Part shown: piece by piece, positions 5,282 through 46,236 of the stretch
Layout: every line of letters starts with the position of its first letter
How positions within the stretch are numbered: the first letter of the stretch is position 1
Source of the DNA: Macrocystis pyrifera
Taxonomy: Eukaryota > Sar > Phaeophyceae > Laminariales > Laminariaceae
DNA length: 64,000 bases
NCBI GenBank assembly: GCA_031763025.1
Contig: JASSKH010000010.1
Span: 15,152,085-15,216,084 of the forward strand
Reading direction: 5' to 3'
Notes under the pieces: model-generated
Told to the model about the DNA's origin: nothing
The model's input: only the letters and a program-made list of their open reading frames with translations
Database searches by the model: none
Translations under genes and position numbers: made by a program

Positions 5282-5862
5282 CTTTAAGATATGGTCTTGT
5301 ATGAGATTGAAAGCCCGGTAACTACCTGGGTTTAGTCACTGGGAACGTATTTGTAGCACTTGGAAGGCGTATCTCAGATGGAAAACCAGGGGTTTTCCAG
5401 AGGAGCACGAGCTTGGTCTCAGTCTCCGCGTGCACGAAAGGAATAAAACTGCTCTTCTTCTATAGCTAAGCAAACAACACATGTGAGTACAATGTTTACC
5501 GACTTAAAAGGCAGACCTGTCCAGGGATACAAAGTGTCCCGTAACACGGGATCTTAACAAATGGCGACGACGGCAGAACATGGGTCGTTGGTCGTGAGTT
5601 CGAATCTCACGTCCACCATGAAATCGCTTTTTAAAGAAAAGTGAATTTCCTCATGTCAAGAACCTGAAAAAATACTTCTGGATCCCCAGAAATTGGAACC
5701 GCGTGTTGGTGTCACGCGTCGACCCGTATATATATCCGGTCCGTTCCAGGGGGGGAGAGTGTTATGAGGCTTAGATTGGGTAGGCAATTGGTTAACCTTT
5801 TACCTTTAGCCCAACGGACTAAGACCCTAACAAAAAGTGTCCCGTAACACGGGATCTTAACA
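5282..5862 (+). mobile_element. Small TRIM-like LTR element remnant
   Basis: A 5' LTR-like copy (about 5282-5559, ending TTAACA) is followed by TGGCGACGACGG at 5562, which is placed like a primer-binding site. A short non-coding interior ends in a purine tract (CCAGGGGGGGAGAG). A second terminal repeat (5760-5862) starts TGTTATGAGG and ends in the same 28 bp as the first. This is the layout of a non-autonomous terminal-repeat retrotransposon in miniature. It is a broken fossil with unequal terminal repeats. Confidence 0.45.
5598..5622 (+). other. tRNA T-arm-like motif
   Basis: GTGAG-TTCGAAT-CTCAC forms a perfect 5-bp T-stem with a canonical T-loop, followed by GTCCACCA. No matching 5' acceptor strand is found upstream, so this is a tRNA-derived fragment within the small LTR-like element rather than a tRNA gene. 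Confidence 0.4.
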
Positions 5863-5951: not shown

Positions 5952-6465
5952 TGAAAAGTATACTCACAGCATTGTCAGATTATCTTGAGAGGAAATATCC
6001 CGTGAGGTATTGCGGAGATTCGGGGGGGTTTCGTGTCTGAGTGGATCTACGATCGGGATACCATCTTTACCCCTGAATTGTGTTTTAGGCCGCATGTGTC
6101 TGTGACGTACGCTGTGGCTTGCTACTTCTTCTTGTAATCTACTTCCTTTCCCGACTCCGTGTCGACGACTCCGTGTCGAGGACTCCGTGTCCAGGACTCC
6201 GCGTCCTTCAATCCAAACTACTAAACCGGGGTTAATCAGCCACCGTACAAAAGGGGGTCCGTCCACCCAGGGGCTAACACGCCACCGCCACCGCTGCTAT
6301 CAAGTCCAGCTTCAATACATTTCATATCATCAACAGGGCTCCTCAGCCACGACAAGGGTACGGGTTGTTTATAGGGTTTATTTCGTCTTTCTTTTCTGCC
6401 GAGCATCGGGCTATCCCCCTCGGCAACAACAACAAGGGCGCCCGGAGCACAGGGGCTACTCAACA
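5952..6465 (+). repeat. Copia 5' LTR
   Basis: This 514-bp repeat starts TGAAAAGTATACTCACAGC and ends CTACTCAACA, matching 13333-13846 at a constant offset of 7381. It contains a short internal array of GACTCCGTGTC units near 6155-6200. A possible primer-binding site (TGGTACGAGTC, 6476) follows about 10 bp downstream. Confidence 0.95.
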
Positions 6466-6579
6466 CGCTAGCGTTGGTACGAGTCGTCCACGCTTCTGTG
6501 CAAAAGGGCTGTGAGGATGAGGTTCTTCCCGTTTAGGATTCCTTATCTGGGGACTTGGATTACGCCGGTCATCGATGGA

Positions 6580-8423
6580 GACATGGCGAAGGGAGGAGGA
6601 GGAGGAGCAGCAGCATCTCCTCAGGATTCTGGTCAGGATGAGGCTGATCAGCGAGGGGTGGCCTCAGAGGAAAGGAGGGAGGATGCACCACAGGACCTGC
6701 CGAGTCCAGAGGACATCCGGCGGCTGACAATCCTGGCGGATCTGATACGTCAAGGGGTTGGGCAACAGAGCGGGCCCGCCCACCCTTCAGGCATGTCTAC
6801 AACTGTAGAAGTACGAACTAAACTTGAGATTAGAGAGTGGACTGGTATGGTAGGAAAAGGAGAAAGCCTTCACACTAAGTTTAGGGTGTTTGAGAGTTCA
6901 TTTCGTGCATATCTGGCAGCTGAGAAATTGTCTGACGTTCTTGGGTACGAGGACATTCCCGTAGGGTTGCCTGACGTGGATTTGGAAATGCTCAAATTGA
7001 ACAGAGGTGCAGAAAGAGTGGAGAAGTCTTTGAGAGTATGGAACTTGCTGCTGACAAAAATCACCGACGGTCCGACTCAAAACCGAATCGTCGCGTCTGG
7101 GAGCCCTCAGCAAGGATGGAGGATTTTTGTGTCACAGTACAGAGAAGGATATGACATGGAGGGAGAGCGTTTAGAGAGGGAATGGAACGAGTTGTGGCAG
7201 GGCGATGGTGAAGATGTCTTGGAATACCTTCGTCGTGGGGAGACTATCGTGATGAACATGAACTCCCGCTTGGGCCCTAGTGGCCACGGTAAAAAGCCTG
7301 AAGATGTTGTATGTCGTCATATCGCCCGACGTCTAAACACCTCTTTTACCCGCGCTCGGGAATCCCTTATTATTTTTTTTTTTCCGAATCTCTCGAGGAA
7401 ACACCTGGAGTTTACCTTGACACAGGCCCAGCACGAGCGTCGGCAGTCCGGGGGAGAGGGACACCGAAGTGAGGAGACGAGGCACGCGCTCTACACTGGC
7501 GGCATGGGTCGGAGTGGACCATCCTACGGCAGGGGCCAGGATGATGGTGGAGCACGCGCTGCAGGATGGAACGGTGGAGGAGGAGCACGCGCTGCAGGAT
7601 GGAACGGTGGAGGAGCAGGCGCTGCCGGATGGAACGGTGGCGGAGCAGGCGAGCGAGGCCCTCACCAACAGTCACCGATGTTCTGCAGACGACACGGCCC
7701 GAACGACTCCCACAACACCGCGGACTGCGTGGCCCTTCGACGGGAGTTCGAGGAATTCTTGGCCTTCCGCGAGCAGAGAGGAGCCCAGGGATTTGCGCAT
7801 GAAGGCCGACAGACGGGGCGGGAAATTGACGGAATTCGCCGCCCGGACTTCGTGCAAGATCGACCCAGGGAGCAGCCACAACGTTCAGACGGGAATTGGG
7901 GTCGAGGCCTCCCGCCAAGGCAGGCACCTGGTCGTGGACGCGGGCCTGCAGGGTACACGGGTCGCCAACCGGGGGGGAGAGGTTTCGCGGACGGGCGTCC
8001 TTCCTCCTCCGGCGGCAGGGGGGCGAGCAGAGCACCGAATTTCCGCCCTAATTTCCACCTCGCTCTGCCACCCACAACGGGCCCCCGCGTTACGCGAACT
8101 ACGCTGGGCACAAACGGGTACAACGCTACTGCGGACGAGCGCTGGGCTGCTTCGGAATGGCAATCCTACGAGGAGCAGCAGTACTCCCCCGAGACGCAAG
8201 AGTACGGCCTCGCAGCTCAAGCGAGCGGCTCTCGGGAAGGCTACGGAGACGTGAGCGGAGGATACGGCTCAGGCTATTTCTCCGGCGGCGGGGGAGTTTA
8301 CCCGCCGCAGCCCGCCGTTCATGGCGATGGCACATACGGCTCTTACGCAGGATACTCTCCAGCTGGACCAGACGCCTTTCAGCCGATGCGGTATCTGGAA
8401 CCGAACGGCGCGTCACAGCAGCA

Positions 8424-8468
<45 letters not shown>

Positions 8469-8760
8469 ACAGCAATACGGAGTTCAGCAGCCCGCCAGCG
8501 CCGCCTCATTCTCTCTCACTTCGTCGTCTCCCTCTTCCGGATCGCCGTCGTCTCAAGGGCCTCTTCGTAGCTGTGTGGCATTGAATGTGTCTCGAGGCAA
8601 GTTTGATTTGGTGTCCGATTTGGTGTCTGATTCGGCGTCTGACTTGATTGATTTCGGTGTGGAATCTCCTGCCTCTGAGTGCAAGTCTGGTGTGACTAAG
8701 GAGAGTGAGACTGTGCTTGTGAGTGCGCATGTGACGGAATCTGCTGTGAGTGCTGCTTTG
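6580..8760 (+). CDS. Copia gag region
   Basis: This is the N-terminal capsid-like part of the Copia polyprotein. It carries a variant zinc knuckle C-x2-H-x5-H-x4-C at about 7682-7730 (CRRHGPNDSHNTADC). Gly-rich repeats GGGARAAGWNG lie before it (about 7545-7650). A Gly/Arg-rich stretch follows, then a polyglutamine run at about 8416-8475 encoded mostly by CAG. Capsid proteins of this class bind element RNA and assemble virus-like particles in the cytoplasm. It is described as part of a fossil element. Confidence 0.8.
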
Positions 8761-8811
8761 CTGTGCGAACCCCAATCCTCGCTCACTCCCTCCCCTCCCG
8801 GAAGTGAGAAA

Positions 8812-9090
8812 TGGACGTCTGATTCTGGATCCACGTCGTACGTAACGAACGACAAGACTCTCATGTACGATTTGCGTGACGTTGAGCCAAACCGCGAGTT
8901 CATCCAGATTGGAAACAAAGGCATGATTCCCGTGGTAGGGGTAGGAAGCATCAACTTGCGATTCCACATATATGATGAAGACGGATTCGTGAAGGATTTT
9001 GACGTGCAATTGAAGGAAGTTTTGTATGCACCACAGATCGGCTTCAACCTTTTTTTTCCGCGTGGAAAGCTTCTCACCGCCAGGTCGTTA
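8812..9090 (+). CDS. Copia aspartic protease domain
   Basis: The motif SDSGSTSYV is the D-S-G form of the retroviral-type aspartic protease active site usual in Copia elements. It is followed by the usual beta-rich segment ending in LKEVLYAPQ. Its role in the family is cleavage of the polyprotein. It sits between gag and integrase as expected. Confidence 0.8.
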
Positions 9091-9529
9091 CCCTCGATCC
9101 CACGGGTACCCACCTCATGGAAGGGCAACTCAACTTTGCACGTGGTAAATCGAGCGATTTCTTGTATGCCACACGTTTGCCCAACGACCCAAGCAGGCAG
9201 GTGATCAGTGTTCCCCGATTGTTTCCGACTCCGTCTTGCCCGCCTGCATCAGATGACGTACGTGATGTTGCGAATTCGTTTTTCGACTTGTCTTTGTGTG
9301 CAGAAACGCATCCCGACATGCACCTCGGTCGGGAAGTCGAGGGAGTTCTGAGTGACGTGAGGCCTGACGGTGGTTGTGATGAGAGTTCCAGTTGGTGTTT
9401 CTCGCCTGAAGTGATCCCAGAGAGTGAAGCAGAAATGGACGCGCGACAGTTTGACAGAATAGAGCATGAGCAGGCGAATGCTGTTTTGGGTCCCGGTTCG
9501 AATCCGTTCTTTGTGGGAAACCGCACGTC

Positions 9530-10440
9530 ACACATCGACGTTAACGACTTCCACCGTGCGAATGGCCACCTTTCCGAATTTCTGTTGCGAGAGACCGCCC
9601 GCCAACAGGGTATCACTCTCACAGGTGTGATGCAGCCGTGTGGGGATTGCATGGCAGCGAAGGGGAGGAACACACCCGTGAGAAAAAGGGCGGGCTCGCG
9701 GGCGGAGGAGCCGAACGACCTCGTGCACCTCGACTTCTGCGGGCCGTACAGCGCTTCCCTCGGCGGCAATTGCTACATGCTGTACGCCGTGGATAGCGCG
9801 ACGCGGTTTTCCAAGTCGTACGCTTTGCGGCGGCGATCGGAGGGTCTCGTGGTGTTCAAGCGTCTCATCGTGGATCTCGCTCGCATCGCCAAGCGCCCCG
9901 TCCGCTGCATTCGCGTGGACAACGACGCCGTCTGGACCAGCGTCGCTTTCCGCGATTTCTGCGCGAGCGCGGGCATCGCCGTCGAGTTTTCTCCGCCCGG
10001 CGTCCAGCAGTACAACGGAGTGGCCGAAAGCGCGATCTGGCGGGCGAACAAGGCGGGGATGGCTGCGCGGCGCTGTGCCGCCCGTCTTCTCGGGCCTGGG
10101 GGTTTCTCGAACATCCCCGGCCTCGACGAGCGCGGCGACAAGCTGTGGGCCGAGTCTGCAAAATGGGCGACGGAGGCGTTCAACCAGTCGGGGACGACCG
10201 CAAACGAGGGCCGCCGGTCGCCGCAGGAGCTGTTCACCGGGAAGAAGGGGCCTTTCCGTGTCCTGCCGTTTTTCCAGCGAGGATACATGCGCGTCGAGCG
10301 GCGGAACAAGATGGAGGACCAGGCCGTCGTCTGCCACTACCTGAACGGAGGCGACAACCACGCGGACTGCTGCGTCAAGGTCGTGAAGGCGCGCACGGGG
10401 CATGTTTGCTACACGAGCAACGTATCGTGGGCGTCGCTGC
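9530..10440 (+). CDS. Copia integrase domain
   Basis: An HHCC zinc-binding region (HRANGHL then CGDC) is followed by the catalytic D,D-35-E core. The acidic residues are in HLDFCGPY (about 9727), RVDNDAVW (about 9913) and NGVAESAIW (about 10015). Family role: insertion of the cDNA into host chromatin. A long Pro/Ser/Ala-rich linker of about 130 residues follows (about 10450-10860). Confidence 0.85.
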
Positions 10441-11199
10441 CGTCGTCGGGGGGGGGGAATTCACGTGGAGTCGGTGTCCCTCTCTCCCCTTCCGCGCCTG
10501 CGCCGCCCCCGCACCCAGGTTTCCAGATCCAGTTCGTGCCGCCGCAAGGGCCTGCCGCTCCGCCGCCGTTCAGGGCCGCCGCGCCGTCGCCGTTGTCCGT
10601 GGAGCCGCCCAGGTTCGGAGCCATGCCGCTGCCCAGAGGAGCTTCGCCGTCTTCTGCGCCGGCCGCGTCATCGCCGGCGCCGTCGCCGCAGCAAGCATCG
10701 GGAGCGCCGTCGTCCGGCTCGCACCCGCTTCCGGCATGGTCTCCGTCCCCGATCCATGGAGCTTCTTCGCTTGGTGGTTCATCATCATCTGAGCCGACGC
10801 CGGCGGCGTCGTCGCGGCAACAGCGCCCGCCGCCGGCAGCTGCCGCGAGATTTCCGCCTCTCACTCCGCATGCTATGAGACAGGTCGGGGGTGAAGGGGA
10901 TCGTCGGATTCAAGGGCGCACTCGGCTGCAAGCACGGGCGATCGCGGAGCAGAGGATGCTTTCTCCGATGGTGGATGGGGCCGTAAACTCGCCGCTGCCG
11001 GAGTCTTCGCCGGGAGATGGGCACCGTTTGGGTCTTGCTTCTCAGGTCGGGCCGAACGTGATGGCGGCGTGGGAGAGGACTGCCTGTGCGACGAGGGAGC
11101 ATATCGATGCGGTCATTCGTGACGAGGTTCCGCCTCTTCAGCGTCCCGAAATGCCCACTTGACACGCGAGTGACCTTCACGTGCCGAAAAGTTACAGGG

Positions 11200-12720
11200 A
11201 TGCCGTGCAGGGTGATCATTCGGTGCAGTTTTCAGATGCCATGCAGAGAGAAATTCACGGGTTGGCTGAAGGACAGGTTTTCGAGCCTGTGCCGGAGCAA
11301 CAGCAGATAGACAATTGTATCGGGTCGAAATGGGTGTTTGACTGGAAGGTTGATGCGTTCGGTTGGCCTGTGAAAGCGAAGGCGAGACTTGTTGCCAGAG
11401 GTGATATGCAGAGAGAATTCTTGGATTTTGGGGAACTGTATGCACCTACTGTAGATGTGTCGTGTGTTCGTTTGCTGGCAGCCTTGGCGTGTGAGCTTGA
11501 CTTGGGGTTGTTTCACCTGGATGTTGATCAGGCTTTCGTCCGAGCGGAACTCGAGGAAGAGGTGTTCATGCGTTTACCGCAGGGATGTGGTGCGTTGTCG
11601 GGGAAGATCGTGAATTTGGGCAAGAGTCTTTACGGGTTGAGGCAGGCATCCAGGCAGTGGTTTGCGAAGTTGAAGAAATGTCTTCTGCGTCTGAGTTTCG
11701 AACAGTGCCTGGCAGATCCATGTGTGTTTCGTCTGATTGAGGAAGGAAAAGTCGTTTTGCTCTTGGTGGTTCACGTCGACGACATTTTTGCAGTGGGAGA
11801 ACAGGCAAGGTGTGATCAGTTCAAGGAAGACCTGAACAAATTGGTTCCAGTGAAGAACTTGGGGGATTTGACGTGGTATTCCGGGTGCTATTACGAGAGA
11901 GACAGGGAGGCAGGAAGATTGACGATTTCCCAGAAGACATACGTCGACAACCTGGCAGGAGAATACGGTGTTACGTGGGGGAAAAGTACGCCGTTGAGCA
12001 CGACGTACAGACTTTGGGAGTTTGATGTAGATGAGCCGGAGGTGAACGAACCTTTTCGACAATTGGTCGGATCGCTTCTGTGGGTCGCTCGGTTGACCAG
12101 ACCCGATCTTTTGAACGCAGTACGGGCAGTAGCGAGGTATTGCAGTTCGCCGAAACTGATTCACTGGAATGCGGCGCTCAATATCCTGGGGTATGCAGTG
12201 AGGACGAGCCATTTTGGTATTTCATTTCAGAGAGGTACTGTCGAGGGGCTGAACTTGGTTGCATTTGCAGACGCTGATTACGCAAGCAAGGCAGCAGACA
12301 GGAGGTCGGTGTCAGGAGGAGTGATTCTGTGTGCGGGGGGGCCGGTCAGCTGTATCTCGAAGACGCAGAATTGTGTGACAACATCTACGACGCAGGCAGA
12401 GTATGTGAGCATGGCTATGGTTGCGCACGATATTTTGTTTCTGAGGCAGGTATGGCGGTTCATGTTGCCGAAGGCTGGTATGCCGTGCATTCCTTTGTTT
12501 GAGGATAACGAGGGGGCGATTCAGATCGCGAAGCATCCGATTTCGAATTCGAACTCGAAGCACATTGACGTGCGGCACCACTTTCTGAGGGAGCTAGTGG
12601 AGAGGAAGGAATTGGAAATTATTCACGTAGCTTCGAGGTACCAGCACGCAGACTTTCTCACGAAGCCGTTGCCTGAGAGAGAGTTTGAGTTCCACCGGAA
12701 TTTTGTGATGAATTTGAGGT
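11200..12720 (+). CDS. Copia reverse transcriptase and RNase H
   Basis: RT hallmarks are visible: KWVFDWKVD, KARLVARG, the LDVDQAFVRAEL block, GLRQASRQW and the catalytic HVDDIF (about 11773). RNase H follows with FADADYA (about 12265), TTQAEYVSM and the KHIDVRHHF block. This is the usual C-terminal half of Copia pol. It copies the element RNA into DNA and removes the RNA strand. Confidence 0.9.
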
Positions 12721-12784
12721 GATTTTTCGGATGACAGTTTTTGTTTTCAGATGGAGGATTAAGTGTTCGTGATTTTATGGAGTT

Positions 12785-13080
12785 TGTCGGGTTCACCGTT
12801 TTCACTTGGTGACACCGCATGTTTTTTCTGGTTCTGTTGGAGCGCAGTTTGTGGAGGATAACATGAAATTACCGTTTTACAAGGGTGGTTTCCACTGCGC
12901 AATCTATATTTTTTAGTTTTGATACCTTGACGTGAAATTGGCGTTTTACCATGCGATTTCACGAAATTGGATATTTGAAGAAATGAAGAATTGCCGTTTT
13001 ACCCTGGCGATTTTGAAAAGGGACTACATTTTAGGATTGATGAAACCTCGCAGAATTGCCGTTTTACATTGACGATTTGG
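12785..13080 (+). repeat. Repeated motif in Copia 3' region
   Basis: The motif GAA(A)TTgCCGTTTTAC occurs about four times between pol and the 3' LTR, with a weaker fifth copy near 12791. Spacing is irregular at about 60-90 bp. Function unknown. Confidence 0.55.
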
Positions 13081-13332
13081 GTAGGTTTCGAAAACAATGT
13101 TTGAATCGTTGGAGTTATTTTCTCTGTTCGAAATATTTTTGAATTCCAGGATGCGAGGATGGTTTGATTTTCTTGGAATTTATTTTTTGGTATTGATTGA
13201 GGAATGATTTGAATGATAGTGAGAACGTTGTTTTCTGTATTGAATGAGTACAAGTATGATTTCCGGTATGACAATTTGACGAAGAGTTGAAGATTCGGGT
13301 CGAAATCATGACAATGTCGCGAGCAGGGGGGC

Positions 13333-13846
13333 TGAAAAGTATACTCACAGCATTGTCAGATTATCTTGAGAGGAAATATCCCGTGAGGTATTGCGGAGAT
13401 TCGGGGGGGTTTCGTGTCTGAGTGGATCTACGATCGGGATACCATCTTTACCCCTGAATTGTGTTTTAGGCCGCATGTGTCTGTGACGTACGCTGTGGCT
13501 TGCTACTTCTTCTTGTAATCTACTTCCTTTCCCGACTCCGTGTCGACGACTCCGTGTCGAGGACTCCGTGTCCAGGACTCCGCGTCCTTCAATCCAAACT
13601 ACTAAACCGGGGTTAATCAGCCACCGTACAAAAGGGGGTCCGTCCACCCAGGGGCTAACACGCCACCGCCACCGCTGCTATCAAGTCCAGCTTCAATACA
13701 TTTCATATCATCAACAGGGCTCCTCAGCCACGACAAGGGTACGGGTTGTTTATAGGGTTTATTTCGTCTTTCTTTTCTGCCGAGCATCGGGCTATCCCCC
13801 TCGGCAACAACAACAAGGGCGCCCGGAGCACAGGGGCTACTCAACA
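13333..13846 (+). repeat. Copia 3' LTR
   Basis: 514-bp repeat that reads the same as the 5' LTR, with target duplication ACGAG immediately after (13847-13851). Confidence 0.95.
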
Positions 13847-16150: not shown

Positions 16151-16761
16151 TATATAAGGTCCGTAAGGGGCGATTACGTCGTACGAACATCATCTGTAAG
16201 GGCCGCGGTCCTAACGGGGGCAAAAAAAACGAAAAAAATAAAATAAAATAAATTAGCGAAGAGCAGAACTAAAGAGCACGCGAGTTTTATTGGTCAAATT
16301 AAAAAAAATCGAAATAGAGATCCCGATATCTCCGTGTTCACATTTTCGTTTTTTTCAAGTCCCAAACGAACAGGGGACTTAAAAAAAACGAAATGGGTGC
16401 CAAATAAACGAATATGACAAGCCGCATACACTACCTCGGGCATCGTGCGCTTGCCAACCGGTCGTAGAAACTTTATCGGAACTTCATCCCAACGCTTCGA
16501 GCTCCTCCTATGTTCCTCTTCGACCCTGGGCATCCCATAATCATTTTGTTTATTTGGCACCCATTTCGTTTTTTTAAGTCCTTTTTTTTTAAGTCCCTGA
16601 GGACTTGAAAAAAACGAAATGTGAAAACGGAGGTATCGGGATGTCTACTTCTAATTTTTTCAACTTGACCAATAAAACTCGCGTGCTCTCTAGTTCTGCT
16701 GTTCGCTTTTTTATTTCGTTTTTTTTGCCCCCGTTAGGACCGCCCCTAACGACCTTGTATA
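16151..16761. mobile_element. 0.6-kb fold-back element with long inverted arms
   Basis: Left arm (about 16151-16410) and right arm (about 16555-16761) are inverted copies. Shared parts are ATATAAGGTCCGTAAGGGGCG, CCTAACGGGGGC followed by an A-rich run, ACGCGAGTTTTATTGGTCAA and AAAACGAAATG. A central spacer of about 145 bp separates them. There is no transposase gene, so this is a non-autonomous DNA transposon or fold-back element. No clear target duplication was found. Confidence 0.6.
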
Positions 16762-16889: not shown

Positions 16890-17220
16890 CGTACATGTAC
16901 AATGTATCGTAAGCACGTACTTACAATTGTCTCTTGGTTGCCATTGCGCTGTACAGCACAGTAAGGCTTGATCTGTGAGCATATACATGTGCGTGCGGAT
17001 GCCATTAGCGCCCACTTCCAGGTATGTATTTCGGAGTAGTTTCGGTCGAAAATGTTGCATTTTCCCCAGAAAAAAAACTCCGCGGTGATCGACGTAGCTC
17101 GCGACGGCGGTCAGTCACGGCCATAATTGTTGTTTCACGTTACAATTATTTTTTTATTCAATAGACATGCATTAAAAAGTGAATGGACAAATTGTCGTGC
17201 ATGGACTGTATCAGCCACAT
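16890..17220. repeat. Dispersed repeat, copy also at 28005-28345
   Basis: About 330 bp are related, with roughly 15-25% differences by eye, to 28005-28345 in the same orientation. Landmarks are CACAGTAAGGCTTGATCTGTG, GTGCCATTAGCGCCCACTTCC (variant) and CTCGCGACGGCGGTCA. The pair flanks the segment holding the LINE tail and Gypsy element. Confidence 0.7.
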
Positions 17221-17830: not shown

Positions 17831-18205
17831 AGGGCAAGGAGCGATCGGGTGACGGCCGGTACGGTCCACGGGGCAACTCTTGTCGCGCTAGTTCTCCCAG
17901 TTCTTCCTCGGACGGCAACACAAGAGCCCCCGTCCCAGAGAAACTCGCAACCAGCAAGAGGTGTCGCGCGCCCTCGCAGCAGGATCGACGGGACCGGAGG
18001 CGTTCACGCTCCTCCTGAGGTTGCTGAGCATCCACTTCGACCGCACAAAACGGGGGCCAGCTACACCAAGTTGCATAATTTTGGCGTGGCTAACGGGACC
18101 CCTTTGTGCGATTTTAGTCGTGCATTGCGAGGGGTGGTGTCCGCAGCGACGGGGACTGAGCGTGTTTTGGCACCGGGGGTGGAGGTTGTTTAGGAGGTAG
18201 TTCGG

Positions 18206-19140
18206 ATGGCAGTGAACGAGCAGTACCCTAGCTTGATGCCCACTCTGTACCCGGGAGTTTTGGCTACGGTATCGAAGCCGTTCGGCACTTTGGACGCCAT
18301 GTGGTTAGCTTTCGAGACCCTTGCGAATAATAAGACACCTGCTGTCAACGGCGAAAAATATTTTTCTTTGCCTGCTTCTTCGACGGGTGCGCGGTCATCC
18401 GCCCCGTCGGGGCCCCGGCCCGCCAGTATTGGTCGCGGCCAGGGCCGGACGCTTCCCCAGTCGCCTTCTGGGCAGACGGGATCGCGCAATAATCCGCTTG
18501 TGATGAATGTCAACAAATCCATCCCTGACTGCCTCGACCCGTGGCTTGACACCTCTTCCAACTGCTGGCCCCTTGAAGAACACCACTACGCCGAAGTTCA
18601 CGCCGTTTGCATGTCCATCCAGACCGAGGACCCTCCCCTCTGGAGCGGCCTACTTTCGTCGTCCGCTCGCGCAGCCGCCCTCAGCGAAAACCGAGGGCAC
18701 TGTTTAAACTGTCACGAAGACACACACTCTCTTCGACAGTGTAGACACCCCTTTCTAAACCTTAGTGGTATCTTGAACCCCGACCTCGGAACGCTCGGCG
18801 ACGACGGCGAGGCGTTCCGTCGTTGGCAAGAACGCATGATCAGACACCGCCGCGAGAACAATTCACGACCGAACAAACACAACCAGAAGAAACACAGGCG
18901 TCATCCCGGCCACTCGCTTGGGCAACATCACAGCCAGGGTCAGCAACACAGGCAAGGTGACGGCTACAACACACACGCGGCACGAGGACATCAGCAGTCT
19001 CACTCCGGTCATCACGGTGGTGGTTCGACCGCCCCTACCTCTTCCGCCCCGGCTCCCGTCTCGGGGGTGCGCTACGGTGCCTCGCATACCTCGGGCGGAA
19101 ACCTGAATGGACGCCAGCCAGGCACCTTCCGCGCCGGTAA
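18206..19140 (+). CDS. Gypsy gag region with zinc knuckle
   Basis: Part of a fossil Gypsy element. The classical zinc knuckle C-x2-C-x4-H-x4-C (CLNCHEDTHSLRQC) is at about 18701-18742. A His/Gln/Gly-rich C-terminal stretch follows (about 18870-19030). The N-terminal half has no motif I recognise. Family role: capsid formation and packaging of element RNA. Confidence 0.75.
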
Positions 19141-20199
19141 CTGACAGGTCGACGGCGGTTCGGCTCCTCCTGCCCGCCCGCCGCCAGCATTGTGGAGAGA
19201 AAAAACCTTGATTTCACAAGATTCTCGCGTCCCAGGCTCGCTCAGCACTCAGCGTCGGCCTACTCTGCTCCCGCCCCGCGCGTTCCTTCGTACTTCGGAC
19301 CGACGCAGCGACTAAGCTCCACTGCTTTCTCCGGGGAGCCCCCGCGCGCCTTCCCCGACGTCGGGAGCCCACGCCTCAAACGCCGCTCCCCTCAACCTGG
19401 ACACGAGAGCAGGCGCGATAAACGCCTCTCTCCCGAACCACGCACTGCGCAACACGACGGGTGTCGCGCCGTCGCGTCGTTTTTTTCAGCGAGGGTGTCC
19501 CCCTGCTACACCTCCCGGCCATGCGGTGGCGGTCGGTTTGAGGTGCGGGAAGGCAAACACCGAAACCCCGAGATCTCGGTTGACGCTCGACTCGGCATTT
19601 TCTCGCAATAACGGTGGCCGCTCCACCCTTTTTCCTATTAAGGAGGAGTCGACAAGATTAGCTACCTCGTCCCCCTTCCCCACCAGGTCTACAGGACGGA
19701 AGCCCTCTCCGGTGGACCCTTTGTTGCCCCCCGCCCGAGCACCGTTCTTGAAGACGTCCACAGGGTCTGCAGGCCCTCTTTCGTCTTCGCGCACGCCACT
19801 CCACGTGCGCAGCGCTCCTTCGGCTCCAGTGGAATAGGAAAAACCTGGCACTGTCCGTCGAGCCAGTGGTGACTCCACGGCCTCCGGTCAGATCAATCGG
19901 ACAGCATACCCGTTAAATTCGGAAGAATCGCAGCTCTCGTCAAGCAGAACGGGCTCAGAGCCCCCTGCCTCCTTTGGTCCAGGACAGAGATCATCGGGCG
20001 CAGCAAGAGAACCTTCTGGCGATTTTTTGCCTACGGGCAATGGTGACACAGAGCCAGTATACGTGGAACCGGACTCGTCTCGTGCACCAGGGGCTCAGTG
20101 TTCTCAGAGAAGCACACTCCCCCCCCCCCCCACACGCCGCAACTGCGGCCACCGACGGCTCGGCACCGTCGGTCTTTGACCCTACTCTCGAGTATACAA

Positions 20200-20620
20200 C
20201 GGAGCGGGTGGTACTGTTCTGGCAGCCACCCTCTTATTTTTCGCAGTGGTCCCCCTCGTCTTTTGTCATCGATGATGTGTCATATTCCTGCGCGGAGCAG
20301 TATATGATGGCTGAAAAGGCTCGCCTTTTCCAGGACCACGACACAGCGGAGCGGATTATGGCCTCGCCAGACCCACGCGAGCACAAACGCCTCGGTCGAG
20401 GCGTGCATAACTTCGACTGCGCTATCTGGGACCGTGTTCGGGAAGACGCCGTCCTTGCTGGTAATTTTGCCAAATTCTCGCAGAACCCGGTCATGAAGCA
20501 GCACCTATTGGGCACTGGCACCAAAATTTTGGCTGAAGCCAGCTCCTTTGATGCCGTGTGGGGCATCGGTCTGCGGGCAGACGACCCCGAAGCTCACGAC
20601 CCCTCCTCGGTGGCATGGAA
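20200..20620 (+). CDS. NADAR (YbiA/COG3236-like) domain inside Gypsy element
   Basis: Nearly all family landmarks are visible in order: FSQWSPSSF near the start, YSCAEQYMM (equivalent of the YPTSEHYFQ block of bacterial YbiA), HKRLGRGV, GNFAKFSQNP, LLGTGTKIL and EASSFDAVWGIGL at the end. NADAR proteins are N-glycosidases. Described activities include hydrolysis of riboflavin-pathway intermediates (COG3236) and removal of ADP-ribose from guanine-containing nucleic acid. The domain lies between the gag zinc knuckle and the protease of the Gypsy element, all on the same strand, with a Pro/Ser-rich stretch of about 1 kb before it. It could be a captured host or bacterial gene. Function in the element is unproven. 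Confidence 0.88.
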
Positions 20621-20929
20621 AAAAAATGCTCGGTAAAGCTCTTTCCGCCGTTCGCGACACCCTCCGATCAAGTGAGGCCGGGTTGGCACACCCCGCCTCC
20701 TCTCATCAATTCTGCACCCCAACCAGACCTGACAGAATTCATGAGATTACACCAGCGCCGCCCCGCCCTTTGGCCGTGGCCCGCGCTTGCCCAGGTCCTC
20801 CTTTGGAGTTTTCGACCTATTTTTCTGACGCGCCGGCTGTCACAGCCCCGAGATTTTGGCTGTCGCACCTAGTGTCGACCCCTCCCTCGCGCTGCCAGAA
20901 CACGGCCCCTGCTTCGTCGGGGGTACCAT

Positions 20930-21150
20930 TACCCTCGATGACGCCTCTTTTACAACCAAAATCGCGATTCACAGCGGAGCTGGCGTTCTTGCACCTTTTG
21001 GTTGCGTGGCGCTTCTTGACACTGGCTCCCCGCAGACTTTCGTCCGACTAGATGTTTTGGATCGCATGCACTCGGTTGGTGCGGCATCCCTCGCGTGCGA
21101 GCAGAAAGGCGCCCCTCGTTCTTGGGGGGTTTTGGCGAATCGGCCCCTCT
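20930..21150 (+). CDS. Gypsy aspartic protease domain
   Basis: LLDTGSPQTFV at about 21012-21045 is the D-T-G active-site loop of retroviral-type aspartic proteases. It lies upstream of RT as expected for Gypsy pol. Part of a fossil element. Confidence 0.75.
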
Positions 21151-21999
21151 GACGACTCCGACGAGTGTGCGCCTGAGCGTCCAATTTTTTCGAGAAAATG
21201 AGCCTACTTGCTCCCTCGCAGTTTGGGCCTGCGTGGTCCCCCCCTCAGTGATGCAGCATGCTGTACTATTGAGACGTGACAGCTGGATGCGTTTAAATAG
21301 CCGCTCCTACTGCTCTCTGCCACCTCGGCCGTCTGATCAACGCGTTTTTTATTAGCTGGAGTTAGTTCATCACGCCCCGACAGGCATGTCCGTGTACGCC
21401 ATCGACCCCGCCGCTTTGGGTGGAGGCTTCCATCTACGCTACGAGGGCGCGGCAGGTGTCACCCTGTCCGACGATCCCCAGCTGCTTGCTGTTAACTTGG
21501 TTCGAAGCGATGGCTCCCTGGCCCTCACTGGACACTACTTGGTCGACATGATGCCCCAGCCCGACCTACCCTCGGTCGAGGAGCACTTCGTCTCCTCCGG
21601 ACGACAGGTTCTTCCCCTCGTTGGAGTGGCGGCTCTCGAGCAGGGGGATGTCCTCGGCGTCGCCCACGCCCCACTGCTGAGCGTCCCGTTGGGCGTTTTG
21701 CAGCAGGACAACCGAGCCCCCAGCCCTCCCTCCGGACTAGGTGAGGTGTGTCCGATCTCAGCAGTTACTGCCCCCCCCCTCGCAGCTCCAGCCTCGCCCT
21801 CGCCTGAACTGCTTGAGCGTTTGACCTAAGAACAGCGCGCTTCGTTCCTGCGCGTCTGGGCACGCTTGCCGTCACATCTGCGGGAGGTGGCTTTTGATCT
21901 CCACGGCACAGGCTGGACCCCTGCGGCCATCGAACAGCTGGGGGACGTTCTCTGCGAATTTCCTGATGTTTTCTCGAAGTCCAAGTTGGATTTTGGTTC

Positions 22000-22760
22000 C
22001 TGCTCGTTGATGCCTTTCGTGATCTCGGTCCCGGAAGGAGGCGCTCCTGTCACGTCCAGGCCGCGCCGCATCAACCCCATCCTGGCCAAGGAAGTGGAGG
22101 CCACCTTGGATCAGTACCTAGCGGCAGGTCTGATCCAGCACTCGACTTCCCCGTACTCGAGCCCGCTGGTGGTCATCCCGAAGAAGTCTGGAGGCGTTCG
22201 GATCACCGTGAACTACAAAAAACTCAACCAGATCAGCAACCTCAGCCAGCTGCCTATTCCTCGCGTGGACCAAGTCCTCGACTCCCTGGGGAAGGGACGG
22301 GCGTTTTCCCTCTTCGACTTGGTCTCCTCGTTCCACCAGATTACCGCGCACAAGGACACCGTCCCTCCTACGGCGTTCTGCACCCCCACGGGCCTTTACG
22401 AGTGGCTCGTCATGCCCCAAGGCAGCAGTGCTTCGCCCGGCTGGTTCGTCAAAGTGATTAACGAAGTCATTAAAGGCCTGGCACAAGTGGCGGCCTACCT
22501 TGATGATGTGATCGTTTTCGACTCTGACCCGACGGCCCACGTCAGGACGATACGAGCCCTCTTCGAACGCCTGCGCAAACACATCTTCAAGCTCTCCCCC
22601 TCGAAGGCTCGCCTCGGCGCCACGGACGCCAATTTTCTGGGCCACTCCATTTCGCCCGCGGGTATAAGCCCTAATGCGGAAAAAGTTTCGGCTTTGATGA
22701 AAATGCCCATGCCCAAGAACCTTAAGCAGGTCCGCGCCCTGATGGGCGGCGTAGGATTAT
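22000..22760 (+). CDS. Gypsy reverse transcriptase domain
   Basis: RT motifs are visible in order: SPYSSPLVVIPKK, RITVNYKKLN, FSLFDLVSSFHQI, TPTGLYEWLVMPQG and the catalytic AYLDDVIVF (about 22494). Then come FLGHSIS and the thumb segment with PKNLKQVRALMG. Fossil element; family role is synthesis of element cDNA. Confidence 0.92.
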
Positions 22761-22929
22761 ATCGCAAATTCCTGCCCGACCTGTCTAAACGGATACGTCG
22801 TCTCACCGCCCTTCTCCGGAAGGAGGTCAAGTATGTCTTCACGCCGGCTATGGAAGTTATCGTCCGCCAGATCCTCGCCGAGCTCGCGGCCCCACCGATT
22901 TTGGTCTTCCCTGACTGGGATGCCGTAGC

Positions 22930-23310
22930 CGACGGCTCCCGCCCCTTCCACGTGTACTGCGACGCCTGCATCGACGGTTTCGGTGCCGCGCTCGAACAAG
23001 AACAACCGGACGGCTCGGTACGGCCCATTGCTTATATCAGCCGCGCCACCCTCGATTCCGAGAGGCACCGGACACCGTTGGACCTGGAAGCTGGCAGCAT
23101 TGTCTGGGCCATCAAACGACACCGAGGTTACCTGTGGAGCACGAAGTTTCGAATATTTTCGGACCACAAAGCACTTGAGAGTATCGGCAAAGTAGGGGAC
23201 CACAACGCGCGAGTCCAGCGGTGGCTCGAGTTCCTCACCGCGTTCGACTACACCCTCGAGTACCGCAAGGGCAGCGCTAACGGAAATGCTGACTTTCTCT
23301 CCCGCTTGCC
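22930..23310 (+). CDS. Gypsy RNase H domain
   Basis: FHVYCDACIDGFGAAL carries the first catalytic Asp, LDLEAGSIVWAI the Glu, FRIFSDHKALE the second Asp, and GNADFLSRLP closes the domain. It is contiguous with the RT domain. Confidence 0.9.
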
Positions 23311-23699
23311 GGAGCCCGCCACAGAACACGACCGCAGTGGGTCTAGCTGCCTCAACCCCGTCGAGGACGGTGGTATTTTCCTCATCCGAGCCTGCGGGCT
23401 TCGCACTCGCTCTTCGCTGACCCCTGGTGTCGGTTTGGGTGGGCTGATGTCCCGCAGTGAAAGTGCCGTCTTGCGTGGGCTACCTCTCGCCTCTTCGGAT
23501 TTATGCGATTTTCGCACACACGGGCCACGTATGAGGATTGACGACCTCTCTGCTCCTTCGGGGAGATTCGTCGCTCGTGTATCTGCTTCCGTCGCCACCG
23601 TCGACCGATGTCCTGGCTTGGGGGCTTTTTCACCCCCCGCCAACGACGCTTTCGCTTCGGTTTTTGTCGTACCCTTCGGGGGCGACCAGGGCTCTACAG

Positions 23700-24195
23700 A
23701 AGCCCCCGCTGCAGCGATGATTGTCGCCCAGCGTGATCCTCTCCCGACGAGCACTTTACAGGTCGCAGATTCCGCCGTGAGCACTGCTCCGGCCGCGTCT
23801 TCCCTCTCAGGCCAGGGCTCTGCACAAGCCTCCGCTGCAGCGATGATTGTCGCCCAGCGCGCTCCTCTCCCGACGAGCACTTTACAGGTCGAAGATTCCG
23901 TCGTGAGCACTGCTCCGGCCGCGTCTTCCCTCTCAGGTTAGGGCTCTGCAGAAGCCCCCGCTGCAGCGATGATTGCCGCCTAGCGCGCTCCTCCCCCGAC
24001 GAGCACTTTACAGGTCGAATATTCCGTCGTGAGCACTGCTCCGGCCGCGTCTTCCCTTACATGCCAGGGCTCTGCAGAAGCCCCCGCTGCAGCGACGATG
24101 GTCGCCCAGCGCGCTCCTCCCCCGACGAGCACTTTACAGGGAAAAGATTCCGCTGTGATCACTGATCCGGCCGCGTCTATCCCATCGCCGCCTGG
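23700..24195 (+). repeat. 126-bp tandem repeats in Gypsy pol spacer
   Basis: Four units are phased exactly 126 bp apart (landmark GCGATGATTGTCGCCCAGCG or variant at 23714, 23840, 23966 and 24092). The unit is 42 codons and encodes an Ala/Ser/Thr/Pro-rich linker (AQRAPLPTSTLQ, then AASSLSG). It sits between RNase H and integrase. Confidence 0.85.
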
Positions 24196-24839
24196 CAACC
24201 CGGCGCCTCCGAACGTTTTGCCGTCTTCAGGTCGCATCTCATCTCGGACTCGACGACGAACAGCCGCCGCCGCTGGCACCGTGCCGCCTGCTGTTGATTA
24301 CAGCTTCGGGCCCGGCGGGGCCCCTAGACCATCAACCCGGCGTGCTATCACCCCGCTGCGAGCCCCTGGGCCGCGACCGCCCGCACCCGTCGTTTTGGCC
24401 CCGACTCCTGCCGCCTCGTCCGTCCCGACGGTACGCATCCCGTCCGGCCGCGACCGCACCGAGCCCGTGGGAACTCCTCTTTTACGACTTCCGCCGCCAA
24501 CTGACGCACCTCCCGTCACCTCGACCGACTTGGACGCCCTCGGCGCAGCTGCCGAGTTTCAGTTCGGTGATTCCGCAGCGCGCTATTCGCACGCCGACTG
24601 GGCTCGGGAACAACAGGCTGAGCCCGCGTGCAACGCCACCATGCGCTACATAGCCCTTGGCCGACCGGAAGTTTTGCCAGACGACTTTTTATCGGGTTTC
24701 CCTCCCCACCAGTGCCCTCCCTTTTCGGAGGTTCAGGAGCTGGCCAACAAAGGCCGCTTGCACATCACCGACGCGGGCATCGTTCTACTTGTCCGACAGC
24801 CGTCCCCCCCCCCTGCGTTGGATACGCCACGCCCGGTTG

Positions 24840-25680
24840 GTCGTACGGCCTGCTTATTGAACGACGAGCCTATTCGCATTTATGTTCTGCTGCTCATGAG
24901 CCCCTGGGTCATGCGGGCTTGCCATTCCACGGCTTCCTGCCACCTAGGAACCGCGCGCACCCTACGTATGCTCGAACGTTTCTACTGGTGGACCGGCATG
25001 AGCATCTGCACCCGGTGGTAGCTACGCAACTGCTTAAAGTGCCAAGCACGGAAAACGTCGCGGCAAACGGTCCGGTGGCCCTCCATCACGTTGCCCTTGC
25101 CAGAAGGGCCCGGCATCGCCGTCAGCATCGACTATTTCGGTCCCCTCCCGGTGACGCCTCGAGGTATTACCTACATCTTGCTTTTCACTGATCGTTTCAG
25201 CCGCCGAGCTGACATGTACGCCGTCACAGCGGCAGAGTTCACGGCTGAGGGCACGGCTAACATTCTCATCAACCGGTATATCCCTCTTTGGGGGTGCCCG
25301 CGCAGCATCCTCTCGGACAACGGTCTCCAGTTCTGCTCCAAGCTTTCGCACGCCGTATATCAGCTTCTCAGGGTTCGAAAAATTGCCACCAGCTCCTACC
25401 ACCCAAACGGCAACGGTGGGGTGGAACGTGTAAACCACACGATGGCCCAGAGGTTGGCAATGGTCGTCAAAGAGCTCCAAAACAACTGGGATGAACAGCT
25501 CCCCTCACGTCGAAATTGCGTACAACAATTCCGTCAGTGCCGCCACGGGTCTGGCTCCCAACGAGGTACATATGGGTCGACTCCCACGCCTCCTTCTTAC
25601 GATTTTCGAGCGTGCTGGAGTCGCCAGCCACCAGAGCTTGACCCGCGACCACCTCGCCTACTGCGACTTGGCGACGGACC
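24840..25680 (+). CDS. Gypsy integrase domain
   Basis: An HHCC zinc finger region (H in CHLGTARTL, then C-x2-C in NCLKCQ) precedes the catalytic core. The acidic residues are in SIDYFGPL (about 25127), ILSDNGLQF (about 25310) and GGVERVNH (about 25420), matching D,D-35-E. Part of a fossil element. Confidence 0.85.
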
Positions 25681-26179
25681 GCCAGCAGCGCGCGTACGAT
25701 ATCGTTCGAGAACACCACGCCCTCACTGTCGCTCGCGTGAACCGCCGCAACTCCGCCCTCTCCGACGCTCTGCGTCCGGTCCCTAAATTTGGCGTTGGTG
25801 GTTGGGTGTGGGTGTACAATACGGCGGCCACCATCCGCCAGGGCGCGAAACCAGACACGGACGCCAAGGTCCTCAAGGCCAAACTCTCACTCAACTGGAC
25901 GGGCCCCTACAAAGTTCTCGCAGTTGGCCCCTGCTCCTCAGCGGACACCCCGGATGGATCTCCTCTCGGAGCAAAGCTCCTGTATTTGGATCTTCCTTCC
26001 GATATGCCCGGCGCTGAGGCTCGCCGGCGCGTATCTGTTCAACGCTGCAAGCCCTGTGCCAACCCCCACGACCGTGGCGACATGACGAAGTATTTGCCGG
26101 CGGGGTTGACGCAATACGTGCTCAACAATTTCTCCAAGAAATCCCCTCCGTACCACGTCACCGAGGACGACGTTTCGCC

Positions 26180-26340
26180 CCCTCTTGAACGACTCGAAGT
26201 GGAAAAGTTTACTGGACATCAATCGATTAGAGGTCGAGGTGGCGTCTTCGCGGTGATGTACGAGACGCACTGGAAGGGACTATCCCGGCCATCCTGGGAA
26301 CGGGAAATGGACCTTCATCTTTCTCGCCACGCAATTTTGC
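26180..26340 (+). CDS. Chromodomain at Gypsy integrase C-terminus
   Basis: LERLEVEKFTGHQSIRG, then VMYETHWKGLSRPSWERE and ILRYWAG, have the chromodomain pattern: a beta strand with V-E-K, then W-K-G followed by S-W-E. In chromoviruses this domain steers integration toward modified histones. Confidence 0.75.
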
Positions 26341-26519
26341 GCTACTGGGCCGGCACCCCGAACCAACACCGCCAAACCAACCGCCTGTACCGCCGAATGA
26401 GAATTGCCGCGGCACAACGGGAGCTTTCTCGGAGGAACGGCGAGCGGTTTCTGGCACCCGGCTATGGTTGCATATCGCACGCCGATTGGCTCCGCCGATA
26501 CAGCAACACTGTACTTCCC

Positions 26520-26660
26520 AACGGGGCCCACTTTTGGTACAAGGGCGACGACGGTCTGTGGTGGCTCGGGAAAATCAGCGCAACTACACCGACGGATGGA
26601 GTATATTTGGTTCGATTTTTGGACGACCCGTGGCCAATCAAGCTTCCTCTTTCTCCGGGG
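26520..26660 (+). CDS. Tudor-like tail of Gypsy polyprotein
   Basis: HFWYKGDDGLWWLGKI followed by YLVRFLDDPWPIKLPL resembles Tudor/Agenet-type folds, with an aromatic W-x-G-K start and an F-L-D-D-P-W core. It follows the chromodomain by about 60 residues. The assignment rests on pattern only. Confidence 0.45.
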
Positions 26661-26789
26661 CGCTACACGACTTCGACGAGAGCTGTACGAGGTTCTTGGT
26701 GTCTGCAAATTCACTTGGCTAGCGCGTTTACACGGGGGGTCCAGCGTAACGTAGATGAATCTCGAGGTGCCGCCGTGGATAGCTGATTT

Positions 26790-27368: not shown

Positions 27369-27643
27369 TGTTATGATACTGCTTTGTATGAGGTTGAAAG
27401 CCCGGTAATTACCTAGGTTCAGTCACTGGGAACGTATTTGTAGTACTTGGAAGGCGTATCTTAGATGGAAAACCAGGGGCTTTCCAGAGGCGCACGAGCT
27501 TGGTCGCAGTCTCCACGTGCACGAAAGGAATAAAACTGCTCTTCTTCTATAGCTAAGCAACACACGTGAGTACCAACGATTACCGAGTTAAAAGGCAGAC
27601 CTGTCCAGGGATACAAAGTGTCCCGCAATCGTTGATCTTAACA
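27369..27643 (+). repeat. Solo-LTR-like repeat (TGTTA...TAACA)
   Basis: This is the longest intact copy of the dispersed repeat also found at about 2450 and 5282. It runs 275 bp, begins TGTTATGATACTG and ends GATCTTAACA, with terminal TGTTA/TAACA inverted ends typical of LTRs. Flanking 5-mers do not match, so no target duplication survives. Confidence 0.65.
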
Positions 27644-28004
27644 ACAGGTCGCCATTTCGAGGAGGGTATCGCGATTTAGATTCTAGCTTATTAGGGGTCG
27701 TCAGGAATCGAGAAGGAGCAGAGGGGGGGGGCATGACAGACCCACACCGATGGCGTGGGGATGGAGCTTGGATGCGGCTTAGGATTAAGAATATAAAGTA
27801 GCGAGTACATAGTAAGATGTAGGAAGGAGTAAAGACAACACATGAGAGTATCGTAGATACAGCATAAAGGAAGTAGACATAGACGATAGATAGACCTGTG
27901 CATAGGTTTCCTTTGTATCCGGGTATTTCTTCTTTCAGTAATGTTTTGATTGATCAATGGTGAAAAGCTCATGCTGCACATTGTCGGATGGCAAGCCTAA
28001 TAAC

Positions 28005-28345
28005 AATGTATCGTATGTACGTGCGTATAATTGTTGGTTGTCATTTGCGATGACAGCACAGTAAGGCTTGATCTGTGTGAGCATGATGTGCGTGCGGGTG
28101 CCATTAGCGCCCACTTCCGGGTATTTCGGGTGGATTCCGGGTCAATTTCGGTTTAATATCGGTCGAAAATGTCGCATTTTTCATTTTTCCAGCAACAACA
28201 AAAAAACTCCGCGGCTACCGACGCAGCTCGCGACGGCGGTCACGGTCATATTGCTGTTTCACGTTACAATTATTTTATTTAAAAGACATGCACTGAAAAG
28301 TGATGACAACAAATTGTCCTGCATGGGCCGTACGATATATTGACG
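28005..28345. repeat. Dispersed repeat, copy of 16890-17220
   Basis: See the copy at 16890. A shorter relative of its left edge (TTGTCGGAAGGCAAGC) also occurs near 36755. Confidence 0.7.
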
Positions 28346-32622: not shown

Positions 32623-32738
32623 AAGAATAGCCGCACCGCGAAAAGCGTTGGAATTTTTCGATATACTGGAATATGAAACGTCGAACTTCCGAAATCCCGT
32701 ACCCAGGGTGTTTCGTACCGGTACGCATTCATAGCTCA

Positions 32739-33493
32739 GGCCGTTTCCTATGCGGTTCCATTTTTGAGTTTCAGATTTTGACCCGATCGCATTTTCAGAT
32801 GTGAACTTGGCAAATCGAAACAGTCTTCCTATGCGTAAAAATCAGATTTATTGTGCGTGTAGAGATTCGAGCAAACGCCGAGACCAACTGCTGTTATTGT
32901 GGTTTGGTGCCGCCAAGAGACGCGCTGGGTGCGCTGCCCTGCGCGTAGGACCCAAGTGTCCGAGCCAAGGCTGACTGCCTCTGGTCTGGCGGCGAAGAGA
33001 CGTGGCGAGTGCTTTAGAGTCAACTCGTCTTGGTAGTATGTATTTCACAATGTGACCGACTGCTGCTGCTGCTGTACTGTAGTCTAGGAGTAAGTACCCA
33101 CGGAGAGGTGCGTGCCGAGTGCGCTTCTCTTGGTCTCTAGGCCCGAGCCCGCGCCAACCGACTGTAGTCTGGCCACGGAGGGACAGGCCGCCCGCGAATC
33201 GGGCGCGAAGCAACGTCGCTATATATACAGCTGTGTCACCATCCAACTCATCGATCGTTCTGCTGCTGTTTGCTGTCGTGGAAAACATCTTGAAATTTAG
33301 AGAGCATGCCATTTTCGATTTGAAAATATGATGACCCAAGTCGTCCGATGTTGGCTGGGTTATCGGATTCTCAAATCTAAAAAAAAAAAACGGTCGGATT
33401 TTGAATATTTGGACTGCATAAGCAGGGTTACTCATTTTTGAGATCGCAAAAAAAAAATCTGAAGCTCGAGATCGAACAGCATAGGAAACAGCC
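32739..33493 (-). mobile_element. Non-autonomous DNA transposon, family A (copy 1)
   Basis: This 755-bp element has terminal inverted repeats GGCCGTTTCCTATGCGGTTC at the left and its complement at the right (with small differences). Its interior is an inverted, about 80-90% similar copy of 45133-45839. Flanks are TCA/TTA, an imperfect 3-bp target duplication. A 3-bp TTA target and GGCC ends suggest a PIF/Harbinger-type MITE. Interior open frames on either strand are not called as genes. Confidence 0.75.
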
Positions 33494-45132: not shown

Positions 45133-45839
45133 GGCTGTTTCCTATGCGGTTCGATTTCGAGCTTCAGATTGGTATTTTTCGATTTGAGAATCCGATGACC
45201 CAAGTCGTCAGATTTTGGGCCAAAAACCGACGACCTGGGTCATCAGATTTTCAAATCGAAAAATGGCATGCTCTCTAAATTCAAGATGTTTTCCACGACA
45301 GCAAACAGCAGCAGAACGATCGATGAGTTGGATGGTGATACAGCTGTATAGCGAGGTTGCTTCGCGCCCGACGCGCGGACGGCGCGTCCCTCCGTGGCCA
45401 GACTAAAGTCGGCTGGCGCGGGCTCGGGCCTAGAGACCAAGAGAAGAGCACTCGGCACGCGCCTCTCCGTGGATACGTACTCGTAGACTACACTGCAGCT
45501 GTACAGCAGCAGCAGCAGTCAAGTCACCAAACGAAACACAAAATTCCAAGACAGGTTGACTCTAGCGCACTCGCCACGTCTCTTCGCCACCAGACTAGAG
45601 GCAGTCAGCGTGGGCTCGGACGCTTGGGTCCTACGCGCAGGGCAGCGCACCCAGCGCGTCTCTTCGCGGCGCCAAATCACAAAAACAGCAGTTGGTCTCG
45701 GCGTTTGCTCGAATCTCTACACGCACAATAAATCTGATTTTTCCGAATAGGAAGACCCTTTCGATTTGTCAAGCTCATATCTAAAAATGCCATGGGTCAA
45801 AATCTGAAGCTCAAAAATCGAACCGCATAGGAAACGGCC
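45133..45839 (+). mobile_element. Non-autonomous DNA transposon, family A (copy 3)
   Basis: A 707-bp element with terminal inverted repeats GGCTGTTTCCTATGCGGTTC and complement, flanked by an exact TTA duplication (45130-45132 and 45840-45842). Its interior matches the reverse strand of 32739-33493. TTA target and GGC ends point to PIF/Harbinger. No transposase gene is present; its TIR-containing neighbours show a family present at least twice in this window. Confidence 0.8.
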
Positions 45840-46236
45840 TTACGCGCATGCCGGAAGGCCTTCGATTATGCAGTATGATTATACAGTATGATCATCTTTC
45901 CGACGGAAATCCTTGATAAACACAAAAAAATTATGCAGACACTGCTGTGAAAAAAATACATCAGGTCTGAGGCTGCGCCGCGTTTGCATCGAACCAGGAA
46001 ATTTCTCAATTGCGGACGACGATTCCGAAGTGCAGACCGCGCTACCCAATTTTCAAGTCAAAAACACCCCTAAAGACCCTTTCTCCCAGATTGCTAAACC
46101 TACTCCTGTCTTCCGTGTACTGTTCGTATTATATACTTTGTTTTTGGTTGGTTGAAAGCCTCGATTTTGGTGTGTTAGGTCGGGGTGGAATCAGGTTGCC
46201 AGCGATTTACGCCGTGCGCCCAAAGCTGACCCACCG

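Follow-up and report, generated by a model that had tools for sequence, protein, structure and literature searches.

A Gypsy lineage bearing a NADAR domain was reported in 2025 for the brown alga Ectocarpus (PMC12477816; this and the other papers are cited here from those parts of their texts that were available). In Ectocarpus sp. 7, where Gypsy-12_Ec32 is one example, the authors term the domain highly conserved within the lineage and closest to bacterial proteins, and they describe a putative chromodomain at the C-terminus of the integrase. The role of the domain is called unclear in that account, RNA processing being suggested by analogy with RNA viruses. The same paper describes Tx1 LINEs of the oyster Crassostrea gigas, which are also retrotransposons with a NADAR but are of the non-LTR type, carry the domain in ORF1 and are called divergent by the authors. 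Our literature search retrieved, in titles and abstract openings among the matches listed, no NADAR-bearing retroelement beyond those of PMC12477816. Outside retroelements, invertebrate positive-strand RNA viruses likewise carry a NADAR in a polyprotein with the polymerase (PMC9503650); theirs, however, is an RNA-dependent RNA polymerase, and their NADARs are distant in sequence from the one studied here (25% for Ingleside virus and 18% for Yellow head virus in our structure search). Finally, the NADAR of Phytophthora nicotianae has been solved with ADP-ribose bound (PDB 8bau), and the available text does not place it in a transposon (PMC11543638).

We analysed a stretch of 64,000 nucleotides of the kelp Macrocystis pyrifera (hereafter the window), in which an earlier note, made by a model from the sequence alone, had placed a NADAR domain within a Gypsy retrotransposon. 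We consider it highly probable that the window holds a decayed Ty3/Gypsy LTR retrotransposon with a YbiA-family NADAR, and that this element is of the published kind. A NADAR-bearing Gypsy element is thus a kind already known, of which the element in the window looks like another copy; what it chiefly adds to the published architecture is confirmation through a reading made independently.

The element and its NADAR domain

The recognizable parts of the element, all on the plus strand, are as follows.

16899..17204, + strand: candidate 5′ LTR (repeat core), by similarity to 28003–28326
18194..19144, + strand: gag-like open frame, open for 316 amino acids, with a CCHC zinc knuckle at 18701–18742 (CLNCHEDTHSLRQC motif)
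20193..20612, + strand: NADAR domain (YbiA family); PF08719, TIGR02464, model pLDDT 87, 44 of 46 uniform columns
20829..21352, + strand: aspartic protease remnant across two frames, with DTGS at 21018–21029 (motif by eye)
21830..23941, + strand: Ty3/Gypsy reverse transcriptase and RNase H, then a linker with 126-bp repeats; YLDD at 22496
23984..25783, + strand: linker, integrase zinc-binding part and catalytic core (Integrase_H2C2, rve), interrupted by a stop at 25019
25434..26786, + strand: integrase C-terminal part in another frame, with a putative chromodomain at approximately 26148–26399
28003..28326, + strand: candidate 3′ LTR (repeat core), by similarity to 16899–17204

The identity of the domain is well established by profile searches. 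The earlier note had named a search of the translated window with the Pfam NADAR profile as a check on its call, and this search returned PF08719 at 142.8 bits (cut-off 35.1; E = 1.5e-41) over model positions 2–140 of 163, an E-value at which a chance match is rejected. NCBIfam TIGR02464 (129 bits versus a cut-off of 73.7) and PHROGs phrog_1017 (E = 1.5e-37) match as well. The five motifs quoted in that note all lie in one open frame (19917–20636, plus strand), and the coordinates that it gave for the domain, 20200–20620, prove correct to approximately 10 bases, the core spanning 20193–20612. Model positions 139–163 of PF08719 match weakly (E = 0.046) and in a different frame from the core, indicating that a frame change beyond the core interrupts the end of the domain. 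We aligned the domain with 106 related loci and two PDB stretches (109 rows in all) and counted as uniform those columns in which more than 85% of the 108 other rows share the same letter, gaps not counted. There are 46 such columns, and the window carries the shared letter in all but two of them (44 of 46; the exceptions are positions 206 and 210).

The pol region is that of a Ty3/Gypsy element. Indeed, RVT_1 (E = 3.7e-25) and RT_RNaseH (E = 3.3e-28) match at 21830–23941, and PDB sequences that match this stretch include 4ol8 (E = 3.5e-61) and that of Ty3, 7q5b (E = 5.1e-61). Integrase_H2C2 (E = 1.9e-6) and then rve follow within 23984–25783, the latter at E = 8.7e-7 but with 29.6 bits, below its cut-off of 32.6, so that a Ty3-type reverse transcriptase and RNase H lie upstream of the integrase domains. 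The pol stretch from RNase H to integrase includes a 126-bp tandem repeat (23562–24183), whose length is divisible by three. The putative chromodomain covers model positions 2–51 of 53 of PF00385, at E = 0.11 and 12.9 bits (cut-off 25.1); the chromodomain of the Ectocarpus lineage is thus matched in the window only below threshold, and the predicted structure of the C-terminal integrase part has a pLDDT of 31. A Tudor-like reading of 26430–26786, made by eye, was not supported, the sole match there being a weak one to SH3 (E = 0.09). With the reverse transcriptase as query, viral_contigs returned three pattern matches and no relative, and the phages no match.

The remaining parts are less sharply defined. 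The Pfam search assigned no gag or zinc-knuckle family to the frame at 18194–19144, the CCHC knuckle being a motif read by eye, and no protease family to 20829–21352, for which the search of PDB sequences gave only unrelated chance matches. No frame stands out at approximately 19100–19900, between the gag-like and NADAR frames. The candidate LTRs are identical in 262 of 345 aligned columns, 48 of which are gapped (i.e. 262 of 297 ungapped columns), and a longer alignment including their flanks gives 274 identities in 353 ungapped columns; neither a target-site duplication around 16899–17204 and 28003–28326 nor the exact ends of these repeats could be resolved. Directly upstream of the candidate 5′ LTR lies a 119-bp inverted repeat (16236–16726; arms 85% complementary and 253 bp apart), possibly a small separate element.

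Within this arrangement the NADAR sits where the earlier note had put it, between the gag knuckle (18701–18742) and the protease DTGS motif (21018–21029) on one strand, both flanking motifs being read by eye. Its order relative to gag and protease is the one described for the Ectocarpus Gypsy lineage. That the Gypsy element carries the domain, as had been claimed, is upheld by the gag-like and pol parts that flank it on the same strand, by its uninterrupted core frame, by the Ectocarpus precedent and, to a modest degree, by codon usage.

Unlike the Ectocarpus lineage as described, the window copy is broken and decayed. Following the frames with recognizable domains, we count at least nine breaks between 20612 and 26783, a number that depends on the path taken: five stops (21353, 21827, 23939, 23981 and 25019) and four frame changes, of which one follows the NADAR core, one precedes the protease motif and one each falls inside the protease and the integrase. 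An assembly error might account for the first frame change, which lies near a single-base run (20619); real decay is indicated by the stops in frame. At nine breaks per 6.2 kb, a stretch of 0.42 kb would stay unbroken with P of approximately 0.54, and the intact NADAR core alone is therefore no proof of selection.

Codon usage was scored with a model trained on the element's own reverse transcriptase and integrase pieces, windows above a mark of 6 being starred. The score favours the NADAR frame in four windows starting at 20200–20560 (3.0, 5.4, 10.1 and 5.7), while twelve reverse transcriptase windows, which are themselves training data, score 6.3–11.9. Only the third of the four NADAR windows passes the mark, and so does the window at 19600, which has two in-frame stops, so that the support from codons is modest. 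To that modest extent, the NADAR shares the codon habits of the element.

Relatives, predicted fold and active site

Relatives of the domain are numerous in bacterial and phage sequences. In viral_contigs, 27 of 32 candidate stretches encode NADAR relatives; in genome_contigs, 169 of 391 do, from which the best 80 of 169 (79 distinct loci) were kept. Among 50,697 phage records, 675 match the window NADAR, all at less than 60% identity. The likeness to bacterial and phage YbiA/COG3236 N-glycosidases includes the motifs EQYMMAEKAR and EASPxDxIWGIGL, and with 39–57% identity among the loci listed, the window domain is closer to these proteins than to 8bau (34%). In being closest to bacterial proteins it agrees with the Ectocarpus lineage (PMC12477816).

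Trees were built from all 106 loci of viral_contigs and genome_contigs (105 in the second tree), the 675 phage records being left out and 8bau being the sole eukaryotic NADAR besides the window. The first tree (109 rows) groups the window with six phage-like rows (support 83/90), and it is absent from every starred set. In the second (107 rows), from which two long rows, E. coli YbiA and locus L025, were taken out, its partners are two rows from Planctomycetota and one from Myxococcota (81/86, the bootstrap not having settled); neither placement is strong. In the second tree, the smallest starred set with the window (98/86) has 29 members, of which 22 are viral contigs; besides the window itself, the others are the long 8bau row, a single Lachnospiraceae row and two rows each from Myxococcota and Planctomycetota. 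Since the nearest neighbour shifts with the rows used, we give the origin of the domain only as ‘bacterial or phage-like’, a reading that appears to stand on these sequence comparisons. In the one phage locus examined for gene context (L008, 7378–12634), a neighbour of the window in the trees, the NADAR is, by contrast with the window, encoded as a gene of its own, and the ten adjacent genes scanned include no reverse transcriptase. This NADAR lies near MazG, a clamp-loader-like AAA ATPase, thymidine kinase and thymidylate synthase; by gene content this locus looks like a T4-type phage, its T4-specific matches being below cut-off.

An AlphaFold2 model of the window NADAR, built on a 43-sequence alignment (the window and 42 of the 106 loci), has a mean pLDDT of 87.2. 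A Foldseek search of this model against 350,542 PDB chains gave two matches only at E < 0.001, namely 8bau (TM 0.78, E = 3.8e-8, 34% identity over 132 columns) and then E. coli YbiA (2b3w). The predicted structure thereby supports a YbiA-type fold for the domain.

The structure of the P. nicotianae protein also allows the active site to be compared residue by residue. Ten side-chain contacts to ADP-ribose are named for 8bau (PMC11543638): K50, R79, W89, R93, D130 and W133 touch the pyrophosphate, K50 also the adenine; E43 and E125 touch the distal ribose, Y84 the adenine and D86 the proximal ribose. We numbered the 8bau stretch from E43, and all eight kept contacts then land on the correct letter. 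These eight (E43, K50, R79, W89, R93, E125, D130 and W133) are identical in the window, at protein positions E127, K134, R161, W171, R175, E207, D212 and W215, respectively. The other two are changed in the alignment (Y84 to Phe 166 and D86 to Cys 168), which suggests an adenosine end somewhat different from that of 8bau. K75 of 8bau, said to shield the pyrophosphate (PMC11543638), is kept as K157. Mutation of the equivalents of E43, K50 and E125 in the E. coli C7 NADAR impaired function (PMC11543638). The glutamate of the last strand (E125 in 8bau, rather than Asp or His), a mark of the YbiA subfamily, is E207 in the window and is the same in 108 of 108 other rows. Preservation of most of the active site is thus supported at the level of sequence, and the residues retained would permit hydrolysis of guanine-linked ADP-ribose.

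Possible role of the domain

Hydrolysis of ADP-ribose on guanine has been reported for the P. nicotianae NADAR (PMC11543638) and, among E. coli-related NADAR/YbiA enzymes, for each of the four types tested (PMC11125620), and the NADARs tested in these two studies strip ADP-ribose from guanine in DNA. For eukaryotic RNA viruses, NADARs in polyproteins have been argued to counter host ADP-ribosylation of macromolecules (PMC9503650). The earlier note had proposed that the element might counter host ADP-ribosylation of its nucleic acid, which is possible and compatible with the active-site residues. Removal of ADP-ribose from the element's own nucleic acid seems to us the most likely role of the Gypsy NADAR, a preference that we hold tentatively and with somewhat less than even confidence. 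In live relatives of the window copy, the domain would be produced within Gag-Pol and would enter the particle of the element, where it would cleave the N-glycosidic bond that links ADP-ribose to guanine in element RNA or cDNA. Host ADP-ribosylation would thereby be kept from blocking reverse transcription or integration. If the enzyme is active, the retroelement would possess an ADP-ribose eraser of its own, and the use of nucleic-acid ADP-ribosylation against retroelements by eukaryotic cells would become testable.

Other substrates deserve consideration, given the name of TIGR02464 and the observation that NADARs of equal activity in vitro behave differently in cells (PMC11125620). The domain might act on small molecules, such as ADP-ribose derivatives serving as host signals or riboflavin intermediates, and so affect the metabolism or defences of the cell instead of the element's nucleic acid. 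We regard this as unlikely: TIGR02464, which the window matches well above its cut-off, is indeed named for a riboflavin-intermediate N-glycosidase, and phage NADARs have been argued to act mainly on low-molecular-weight derivatives, but for the polyprotein NADARs of eukaryotic RNA viruses the same authors argue for action mainly on macromolecular ADP-ribose (PMC9503650). Assistance in processing the RNA intermediate of transposition, as proposed by the Ectocarpus authors on the analogy with RNA viruses (PMC12477816), appears a little more doubtful still, as the experimental enzymology in the available texts concerns removal of ADP-ribose from guanine and no RNA end processing (PMC11543638, PMC11125620). 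We would give the same low credence to a passenger NADAR of structural or RNA-binding nature, its chemistry being no longer relevant. The decay of this copy and the two changed contacts out of ten fit such a passenger, whereas the 44 of 46 uniform columns kept, together with the high conservation claimed for the Ectocarpus lineage (PMC12477816), argue against it.

A more radical alternative is that a host NADAR gene stands at this site by chance, with retrotransposon parts inserted around it. Ectocarpus does have annotated NADAR proteins, such as Esi0017_0056, whose gene has two predicted introns (PMC7922944). In the window, however, an uninterrupted core frame lies between the gag-like and protease motifs on one strand, and an entire Gypsy lineage with the identical order has been published (PMC12477816). 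On the frames, the flanking motifs and that lineage, a separate host gene was rejected as very improbable.

Esi0017_0056 nevertheless merits attention in its own right. This protein of 391 amino acids, with the same Pfam domain at 132–291, is induced by stresses, and its expression in Arabidopsis increased tolerance of salt and heat (PMC7922944). Within the literature searched it is named by PMC7922944 alone, and the terms Esi0017, Rathor and DUF1768 are absent from the main text of PMC12477816. It may be related to the Gypsy NADAR. A broader scenario, which we put forward as speculative and rather unlikely as a whole, is that the NADAR of certain stramenopile Gypsy elements is a working counter-defence ADP-ribose eraser, that hosts of this group ADP-ribosylate retroelement nucleic acid and that the domain has been exchanged with host genes, stress-induced algal genes such as Esi0017_0056 being derived from the element domain or its donor. 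The active-site comparison and the possible link to Esi0017_0056 extend beyond the published Ectocarpus account (PMC12477816), as far as its available text goes.

Other features of the window

A Copia element with RVT_2 and rve domains lies at 5952–13846; its two 514-bp LTRs (5952–6465 and 13333–13846) are identical and ACGAG stands on both of its outer sides, and it is probably a recent insertion. At 47956–50631, two open stretches match beta-propellers of the DDB1/RSE1/CPSF1 type and are, judging from these matches, probably exons of a host gene. An interspersed repeat at 27371–27644 has further copies at 5284–5560 (90%) and, in part, at 2442–2593 (95%). Finally, 45219–45840 is an inverted copy of 32738–33355, with 89% identity.
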